Below are positions 1,315 through 3,780 of a stretch of 64,000 nt of DNA, one piece after another (within the stretch, counting starts at the first letter, position 1; each line of letters starts with the position of its first letter). The DNA comes from Nitrospirota bacterium (lineage in GTDB: Bacteria > JACPQY01). The notes beneath the pieces are model-generated. The model made no database searches and was not told the DNA's origin. It saw nothing but the letters and a program-made list of their open reading frames with translations. The position numbers and the translations under genes are program-made. Location of the stretch: positions 1 through 64,000 of the forward strand of contig JACPAV010000007.1 in the NCBI GenBank assembly GCA_016180645.1, written 5' to 3'.

Positions 1315-1893
1315 TTACGCCTGCTTCTCGAAAAATTCCATCGGCTTTTTCGTGTCGATCGCCTTCGCGCCCTTGTGCCAATTGGCCGGGCAGACCTCGC
1401 CGTGCTCCTTGTTGTATTGGAGAGCATCCAGCACGCGCAGAACCTCGGAGGGGTTCCGCCCGATGGCCAACTGCTGGACCACCTGGTACTGGAGCACGCC
1501 GTCCGGATCGATGAGGAAGAGGCCTCGGAAAGCCGCCCCCAGATCTTCCTTCAGGACGCCGAAGGCCCGGCTCACCTCTTTGGTGAAATCGGCGAGGATC
1601 GGGATCTCCACGCCTTTGATGCCGCCCTTTTTCGTGTCCACTTCCATCCAAGCCTTGTGGCTGAACTTGCTGTCTGTGGAGCAGGCCACGACTTCACAAT
1701 TCCGCTTCTTGAACTCCGCGCTCTCGCCCGAGAACGCCAATAGTTCCGTAGGTCACACGAAGGTGAAATCGAGCGGATAGAACCAAAGGCAAAGCCACTT
1801 GCCCTTGAAATCGCTCGATGAATAGCTCTTGAACTCGCCCTTCACGACTCCATCGAGCTTGAAGTCCGGGGCTTTCTGTCCCACTTGAATCAT
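1315..1893 (-). CDS. Selenocysteine-containing 2-Cys peroxiredoxin (AhpC/Prx1 type), UGA-encoded Sec at residue 47
   Basis: From the ATG at 1893 (AAGGAGG seven bases upstream) the minus strand reads MIQVGQKAPDFKLDGVVKG and so on to FYPLDFTFV, then UGA (1755-1753), then PTELLAFSGE. It continues in frame to TAA at 1315, giving 192 residues. The UGA falls exactly on the peroxidatic position of the AhpC motif FTFVCPTE, at residue 47 as in AhpC. The resolving cysteine is at residue 168 (GEVCPANW), and GGIKGVEIPILAD and GLFLIDPDG are also typical of the family. A strong stem-loop follows the UGA (see 1711-1755). Known selenoprotein peroxiredoxins carry U at this site, so I read the UGA as selenocysteine and not as a nonsense mutation. 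The protein would reduce H2O2 and organic peroxides. Automatic callers would truncate it to 141 residues and lose the active site. The Sec insertion machinery is not in this window. Confidence 0.85.
1711..1755 (-). promoter_or_regulatory. SECIS-like stem-loop immediately after the in-frame UGA
   Basis: Downstream of UGA (1755-1753) a lower stem pairs GAACT (1746-1742) with AGTTC (1715-1711). An internal loop follows. The upper stem pairs GCGTTCTC (1737-1730) with GAGAGCGC (1725-1718): eight base pairs including one G-U, capped by GGGC (1729-1726). The apical loop starts with G about 24 nt after the UGA, which fits the known bacterial SECIS pattern (stem-loop close to UGA, G in the first loop positions). 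The pairing is seen directly; binding by SelB is inference. Confidence 0.75.
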
Positions 1894-2088
1894 GAACGTA
1901 ACCTCCTTAACGATGGACCAACGCGTATTTTTTCAGGATGCTTGATCCCTGCCAACCAATTACCAGAGGGTGCCCCGCAGGTCAAGCTTGTGGACCCCGG
2001 CCGGAACAGTTCGGATCGGTTCGCTCAGCTCGGGGCCCTCGATCCCGACGTTGATTTCCCCAGGCACTTGGATGAAAGTGGGATCGGT

Positions 2089-3636
2089 GTGAGAGCTTAT
2101 CGTCTGAAACGGCTCATGTTCGTGGCTCTTTTCCTTTCGCTCACTGCGGTGGGTCTCGTCTGCACCAAAGAGGAGTCTCCCAAGATCGTGACGGTATTCG
2201 GTGAGGGAGACTACTCGACCGGTAAGAAATCGGCCTCGGCCTTTGAGGATTTCATTCGATCTTTCGTGGCGGCTTTGTCGTCGGTCTGTGGCGGACCGGA
2301 TTCGGTGGGCCTGTGTCTGCTGGCCGAGTTCTGCGAGACGGTGAATCGTGTGCCTCTCGACCATTTGATCACGGGTCCGGAAATCCAGTCGATTTCCGGG
2401 TCGATCCGGATCGGGCGGTCGGCCTTCCATGAGGCGAACGCGAAGCGATACGCGGATGCCTTTGACAACCTCCAAATGGCGCTGTCCTCCGGCCATGTCG
2501 AGGCGTTGGCCGATTCGACGTGGAACGATGTTTTCGCGCTTCCCCTCCTGACCGGGGTCCAGAAAGACGGCGATCCATGTTTCTCTGTCGATGAGTGCGA
2601 GCGGGGTCTGGTCTGCAATCTGGTCGGCTGTCCCGGCCGATGTCAGCGGCTACCCGGCGCCGGGGAACCCTGTCTGCCTGAATTTCTTGCCGAGGAGCAA
2701 GAGTCGATCCTTTCCTTTGCAAGCTCCGGAACCGTCGAAGTGGAGCAGTGCGATGCATCGTCCACATGCGATGAAAAGACGAGCACCTGCGTGGCGCGCA
2801 GGGTTCAAGGAGATCCATGCCTCGATTCGGGCGGGTGCGTGAAGTCACTCTACTGCCGTTCGGGCCGATGCGTTTCGTTCAAGGAAGCCGGCGGGTCCTG
2901 TGTGAATCGGGTGGATCGTTGCGCCCTGGGATTGACGTGTCGAGAAGGGGCCTGCAAGCCGCCGGCGAAAGAGGGCGAGCCGTGTTCCGGGAGTCCTTCC
3001 GCGTGCACGGCGGGTCTCATCTGTCGTGCCGGCGGTTGCCGCTTGCCGGGGGTTGAGGGCGAGCCGTGCGCCCGTCTCAACGAAGATCTCGATTTTGCCC
3101 AATGCCAAACTGGGCTGACCTGTTCTGCGGAAGGAAAGTGTTCCGCAAAACTTGGCGCCGGAACGGAATGCAACCGGATCGATGTGTGCAAGGGATATTG
3201 CGACGGTCTGTTCGCCTCCGGCAAAGGGACCTGCCGCGATGCCTTTCCTTCCGCGGGGGAAGCCTGCGGCGCCGAGGGCGAGTGCGAGTTTTGTGCCCAG
3301 TGCGATGGAAAAACGAAGATCTGCTTGGCCGTGGGGATCGGCGCCGCGTGCATGAAGGATTCCGACTGCGCCGGGGATGAACTCGCCTGCGATGCGGCGT
3401 CCTCCCGATGCGCGATCAAGCCGGTGCTCGGCGAGGCCTGTGATCCAAACGTGGGATGCTCATCCGACTTCTACTGCGGGCCGGACGGGGCCTGTCGGGC
3501 GGGAGACCGGTTCCGGTACGAATCCTGTGCCTATGATAGCCAGTGTGTGAGCGACCATTGCGAAGGGAGATCGTGCGCGGGGGGGGCGTGCCGTCCCCCG
3601 GAAATCCCGGCGGCCGCGAAGATCCCCGCCCGATAG
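2089..3636 (+). CDS. Secreted Cys-rich protein with Dickkopf/EGF-like repeats
   Basis: A 515-residue protein. The N-terminus has basic residues followed by a hydrophobic stretch (MFVALFLSLTAVGLVC), so it is exported. The Cys sits in a poor lipobox, so lipidation is uncertain. From about residue 165 to the end, some 50 cysteines fall in about ten tandem units of the form G-x-PC...C..GL-x-C..G-x-C (for example GEPCSGSPSACTAGLICRAG). This Dickkopf-like architecture is common in Myxococcota and relatives. Residues 30-165 have no recognisable domain. The GTG at 2089 was preferred to the ATG at 2116 because it supplies a basic n-region; the choice is not certain. An in-frame upstream ATG at 1885 overlaps the peroxiredoxin start and is unlikely. 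Function unknown; disulfide-rich surface binding is likely. Confidence 0.75.
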   Translation: MRAYRLKRLMFVALFLSLTAVGLVCTKEESPKIVTVFGEGDYSTGKKSASAFEDFIRSFVAALSSVCGGPDSVGLCLLAEFCETVNRVPLDHLITGPEIQSISGSIRIGRSAFHEANAKRYADAFDNLQMALSSGHVEALADSTWNDVFALPLLTGVQKDGDPCFSVDECERGLVCNLVGCPGRCQRLPGAGEPCLPEFLAEEQESILSFASSGTVEVEQCDASSTCDEKTSTCVARRVQGDPCLDSGGCVKSLYCRSGRCVSFKEAGGSCVNRVDRCALGLTCREGACKPPAKEGEPCSGSPSACTAGLICRAGGCRLPGVEGEPCARLNEDLDFAQCQTGLTCSAEGKCSAKLGAGTECNRIDVCKGYCDGLFASGKGTCRDAFPSAGEACGAEGECEFCAQCDGKTKICLAVGIGAACMKDSDCAGDELACDAASSRCAIKPVLGEACDPNVGCSSDFYCGPDGACRAGDRFRYESCAYDSQCVSDHCEGRSCAGGACRPPEIPAAAKIPAR

Positions 3637-3645
3637 ATCCGTTGC

Positions 3646-3675
3646 TTGACAGCGATGAGGTCTCTTTTATAAGAT
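3646..3675 (+). promoter_or_regulatory. Sigma-70 promoter for the envelope operon starting at 3781
   Basis: TTGACA (3646-3651) is followed by TATAAG (3668-3673, spacing 16) or TAAGAT (3670-3675, spacing 18). This is the best consensus promoter I found in the window. It leaves a leader of about 100 nt before 3781 and probably drives the FG-GAP lipoprotein and the genes behind it. Confidence 0.65.
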
Positions 3676-3780
3676 AGCCGAACCAAGACGGGCAAAGCGA
3701 GGGCCGCGTCGGGGCCAAGGGGGCGACCGGGCGGAAACAAGGGGAGACGGAAAGGAAATGCGGGATCGGGAGCCTGCCCA

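Follow-up and report, generated by a model that had tools for sequence, protein, structure and literature searches.

An AhpC-type peroxiredoxin gene from a Nitrospirota genome with a UGA codon, very probably read as selenocysteine, at its peroxidatic position

The window, which is the whole stretch of 64,000 nucleotides of Nitrospirota DNA analysed here, carries a gene for an AhpC-type peroxiredoxin with a TGA triplet in the middle of its reading frame. The question is what this triplet means. It could be a mistake in the assembly, a genuine stop codon, or a codon that is read as an amino acid, in which case it must also be asked which one. The initial annotation proposed selenocysteine (Sec). 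Its coordinates and description are correct; the strand, which is the minus strand, was absent from it. Judging from sequence comparisons, we put the probability that this is a functional selenoprotein gene, in which UGA codon 47 is read as selenocysteine, at about 95%.

The gene occupies positions 1315 to 1893 of the minus strand, from an ATG at 1893-1891 to a stop codon that ends at 1315. This comes to 192 codons plus the stop, a delimitation based on the open frame with TGA as U, on Pfam domains and on phmmer. Translated in this way the product has 192 residues and a single recoded codon, U47, with its TGA at 1755-1753. The upstream sequence, when reverse complemented, reads GTTAAGGAGGTTACGTTC-ATG, which is the strong ribosome-binding site that had been claimed. 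The site itself, AAGGAGGT, lies at 1901 to 1908 (minus strand), 7 nt upstream of the ATG.

A mechanical ORF call finds only 1315-1740. This is a protein of 141 amino acids starting from a TTG at 1740, and as had been anticipated, it lacks the active site. Standard annotation therefore cuts the gene to 141 residues, and because the active site is lost, the genome would seem to be without a working AhpC. The window gene is the sole AhpC-type peroxiredoxin found in its own genome.

The domains are those of a peroxiredoxin. Pfam reports AhpC-TSA (PF00578) at 128.9 bits and 1-cysPrx_C (PF10417) at 36.3 bits, both over their cut-offs, and the Redoxin domain is also over its own. A phmmer search against solved 2-Cys peroxiredoxins (3zvj for example) gives a gap-free alignment over residues 6-180 with an E-value of 3e-63. 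In this alignment the UGA (positions 1753 to 1755, minus strand) is opposite the peroxidatic Cys, and it is likewise aligned to the Cys or UGA of 76 homologues. An in-frame UGA aligned to the redox-active Cys of homologues is one of the marks of a bacterial selenoprotein.

The peroxidatic motif reads P40-LDF-T44-FV-U47-PTE, or P40xxxT44xxU47 in short. The conserved Arg is kept as R123. Resolving Cys168, which had been named earlier, is found in the VCPxxW motif, here VCPANW; its codon lies at 1390 to 1392 (minus strand) and aligns with the VCPxNW of solved 2-Cys peroxiredoxins. Besides position 47, where Sec is proposed, there are cysteines at 35, 66, 71 and 168. The PxxxTxxC/U motif, conserved Arg, C-terminal resolving Cys and C-terminal domain together describe a typical 2-Cys AhpC/Prx1 enzyme.

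Since the alignments to solved peroxiredoxins and to a Sec homologue (residues 2-192) are free of gaps on both sides of the TGA, the reading frame is intact, which is what had been asserted. Homologues were searched for in 395 genomes of one other phylum, of which 200 have one at E 1e-35. In dozens of these 200 the AhpC homologue contains exactly one in-frame TGA, and in every such homologue that was extracted it sits at the peroxidatic codon. Full contexts were obtained for 29 homologues from other genomes, which with the window gene makes 30. The TGA is at the same codon in all 30, so its position is not chance. The initial annotation described selenoprotein peroxiredoxins as known in a few bacteria. 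This is too low, given how common Sec is in the AhpC-type peroxiredoxins of the sampled phylum.

Most of the nearest homologues of the window protein have Cys. The best match overall, L035 from genome G205, has UGA at the same codon and is 58% identical over residues 2-192. A bSECIS-like hairpin is present in L035 too. In G205, selB was not found at E 1e-60, nor was a tRNA-Sec; this genome may be an incomplete or mis-binned draft. In a wider contig collection the first matches with Cys are Spirochaetia MAGs, and the first with UGA are MAGs of Deltaproteobacteria, Desulfobacterales and Spirochaetota. One other genome of the window's phylum was searched (G001, 84% complete). No orthologue, selB or tRNA-Sec was found in it, which leaves the trait unconfirmed in a close relative.

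A bSECIS-like hairpin follows the UGA codon of the window gene, at positions 1711 to 1746 (minus strand). Beginning 6 nt downstream of that codon, it has a lower stem of 5 bp, an upper stem of 8 bp and an apical loop GGGC, which begins 23 nt after the UGA. The fold is worth -18.6 kcal/mol, and 3 out of 200 shuffles are as good. A published bSECIS model (PMC13188914) has an apical loop of 3-9 nt with a G in its first two positions, located 16-37 nt after the UGA. It further limits the upper stem to 4-16 bp and the MFE to -7.5 or lower.

The window hairpin agrees with every point of this model, but for one sequence by itself such agreement does not discriminate. With these constraints applied, 36 of 1500 synonymous recodings (2.4%) fold as well, as do 208 of the 1820 TGA triplets in the window (11%); the DNA is GC-rich. 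Because of these matches the hairpin was rejected as stand-alone proof. It is weak evidence alone, and reliance was therefore placed on a comparison across the family. The model fits 30 of 30 UGA sequences (window included) against 13 of 47 Cys homologues (p 2e-8), and ranked against their own dinucleotide shuffles the sequences have a median of 0.07 for UGA versus 0.59 for Cys (p 8e-9, with similar G+C); both p-values are optimistic because related sequences are not independent, yet the contrast between UGA and Cys is still large. Rfam finds no curated SECIS or other family in the region, all matches being far below gathering scores.

The next question is whether the organism could decode such a codon. 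Its genome is a 4.7 Mb draft in 65 contigs, 97% complete, and the selenoproteome was sampled through family searches of these contigs. The initial annotation had predicted selA, selB, selC and selD, and would have taken a lack of selB/selC as a refutation; all four were detected. The selB gene is full length (369.8 bits, over its cut-off), as is selA (556 bits). The tRNA-Sec scores 73.3 bits and has a UCA anticodon. The selD gene, at 356.9 bits, itself contains one in-frame TGA (RCAG-U-AGK), at what we take to be the usual Sec/Cys position of SelD.

A scan for further UGA genes, which had also been suggested, found, in addition to selD, four or more further genes that are likely to encode selenoproteins. 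A PrxQ/Bcp gene (L106) has one in-frame TGA in the context TPG-U-T, a SelL-related gene (L110, over the NF040769 cut-off) has one in G-U-PYC, and a ResA/TlpA-like gene (L113) has one in R-U-QTC. The remaining one is a UXX-star family 1 glutaredoxin-like gene (L016, approximately 3505-3760), which reads GKAG-UGA-PYT and is over the NF041114 cut-off. It lies some 2 kb from selD. Given the full sel machinery, and TGA at the redox sites of further genes, the genome is that of a Sec-using organism, in which likely selenoprotein genes number at least six, counting the window gene and selD.

The presence of selB was rejected as a way to discriminate Sec from Cys. Genomes with a Cys-AhpC in the sample mostly have selB too.

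With this in hand the other readings of the TGA can be weighed. The codon could be an assembly or sequencing error for TGC or TGT, making this an ordinary Cys AhpC. The genome is after all a draft in 65 contigs, and Cys is what most of the nearest homologues have. Such a substitution must however strike the one catalytic codon out of 192, and do so in a genome equipped with every part of the Sec machinery, where TGA also occupies redox sites in several other genes. It must also land beside a hairpin in agreement with the bSECIS model, at the very codon where UGA is found in a homologue of 58% identity. We regard an error of this kind as very improbable. A nonsense mutation would leave either a decaying pseudogene or a 141-residue gene that now starts at an internal TTG, and the latter is precisely what the mechanical ORF call from TTG 1740 delivers. 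Yet the gene has no other stop or frameshift, and its catalytic neighbours, resolving Cys and ribosome-binding site are all intact. The shortened form would lack the peroxidatic residue along with its loop, and distant homologues share this UGA, so this explanation is less credible still, to the point of being nearly negligible.

The UGA could also be read as cysteine, and the genome does contain a tRNA that brings this to mind. It is a second tRNA-Sec-like gene (L008, 1501-1592, which is G000:C22:24197-24287 on the plus strand), with a GCA anticodon, a long variable arm and U73 as its discriminator. Its score against the tRNA-Sec family is 47.2 bits, and the gene is extra to an ordinary tRNA-Cys (L009). 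It is located on selA's contig, 22 kb apart from that gene. L008 resembles the selC*-type tRNA-Cys that has been described, in some cases with a UCA anticodon (PMC7609411), but has no visible bulged A in the T-stem. A GCA anticodon should read UGU and UGC, not UGA, and for that reason L008 was rejected as the UGA decoder. In addition, the window's genome yielded only one selB over the cut-off, and it does have a true tRNA-Sec with UCA. The odds of a cysteine reading are as slim as those of a nonsense mutation.

If UGA codon 47 is read as selenocysteine, SelA would make the Sec-tRNA(Sec), using selenophosphate from SelD, and SelB would bring it to the codon, recruited by the hairpin. The product would be a typical 2-Cys peroxiredoxin. 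Going by peroxiredoxin chemistry, Sec47 would attack peroxide and become a selenenic acid, which Cys168 from the partner subunit would then resolve into a Se-S bond. A thioredoxin-like protein is the presumed reductant of this bond.

Bacterial Sec insertion is inherently incomplete, at 30-40% in vivo in one study (PMC4513850). Some translation would therefore probably terminate at the UGA, and leave a 46-residue stub. Selenium resists overoxidation (PMC8533274), and we may speculate that this would suit an organism that meets pulses of oxygen.

Sec peroxiredoxins are not new, and form a known selenoprotein family (PMC13188914, PMC9312934, PMC1794560). By its sequence, the window protein belongs to the known Sec-AhpC/PrxU-like peroxiredoxins, and comes from a poorly sampled phylum. 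PrxU of Eubacterium acidaminophilum (Soehling 2001; NF040737) is, like the window protein, a Sec peroxiredoxin; its host is, as cited in later literature, a strict anaerobe. The window protein matches the PrxU model NF040737 over residues 1-180, but at 173.6 bits stays below the curated cut-off of 270. The same goes for the NCBIfam AhpC equivalog TIGR03137, where it reaches 174 bits against a curated cut-off of 272. Being below both, it is a divergent member and not an AhpC or PrxU equivalog.

The AhpC selenoprotein of Santesmasses 2017 (PMC5330540) likewise is an AhpC that contains Sec, and a bSECIS follows its Sec codon. The example given there, from Blastococcus saxobsidens, uses UAG with a CUA tRNA-Sec, whereas the window gene uses UGA with UCA. 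Surveys also list a Prx selenoprotein family (TxxU; PMC9312934, PMC13188914), and the P-x3-T-x2-U site of that family is shared with the window protein. One survey files this family as Bcp/PrxQ (COG1225), whereas the window protein is of the AhpC/Prx1 type with a C-terminal resolving Cys. Typical 2-Cys peroxiredoxins with Cys (AhpC/Prx1-4) match over residues 6-180, including R123, C168 and the C-terminal domain. The window protein differs from these by Sec at the peroxidatic site, and by having GGIK instead of GGLG. For the phylum, represented by two genomes in the comparison, a Sec-decoding trait and a redox selenoproteome are added.

Downstream of the peroxiredoxin gene and on the same (minus) strand there is a gene for a Rieske-type ferredoxin, at 841 to 1149 (Rieske PF00355, 66.4 bits), which is possibly co-transcribed with it. 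A TetR-family regulator follows at 166 to 822, again downstream on the minus strand (TetR_N, 50.9 bits). On the other side, and divergently oriented, lies a Cys-rich ORF of 583 amino acids (1885-3636, plus strand), which has no Pfam match at E 1e-5. At this locus ahpF does not adjoin the peroxiredoxin gene, so the pairing of AhpC with AhpF is not seen there.

The history of the Sec/Cys position was studied with a tree from which that column was masked. In it L035 is the partner of the window protein (SH-aLRT 92-93), and Cys proteins are close to this pair; the other Sec proteins form two further groups. A topology that unites all Sec sequences in a single clade is rejected (p-AU 1e-57), and one that joins the window pair to its nearest Sec group is rejected weakly (p-AU 0.038). 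The well-supported branches force at least five Sec/Cys changes. Given the strong rejection of one Sec clade, Sec has been gained or lost several times.

As early as 2006, peroxiredoxins were inferred to have undergone conversions from Cys to Sec (PMC1794560). We give about even odds to the window gene and L035 stemming from a Cys-to-Sec switch of their own, separate from the other sampled Sec groups, with Sec gained repeatedly in AhpC-type enzymes. The alternative is that Sec may have been lost repeatedly from a Sec ancestor. The set of Sec and Cys homologues is material for studying why a peroxidatic site acquires Sec or gives it up. Elsewhere in the tree, two closely related AhpC homologues (L086 and L102), joined by short branches with 99% support, have UGA in one and Cys in the other, and this pair is a recent Sec/Cys switch.
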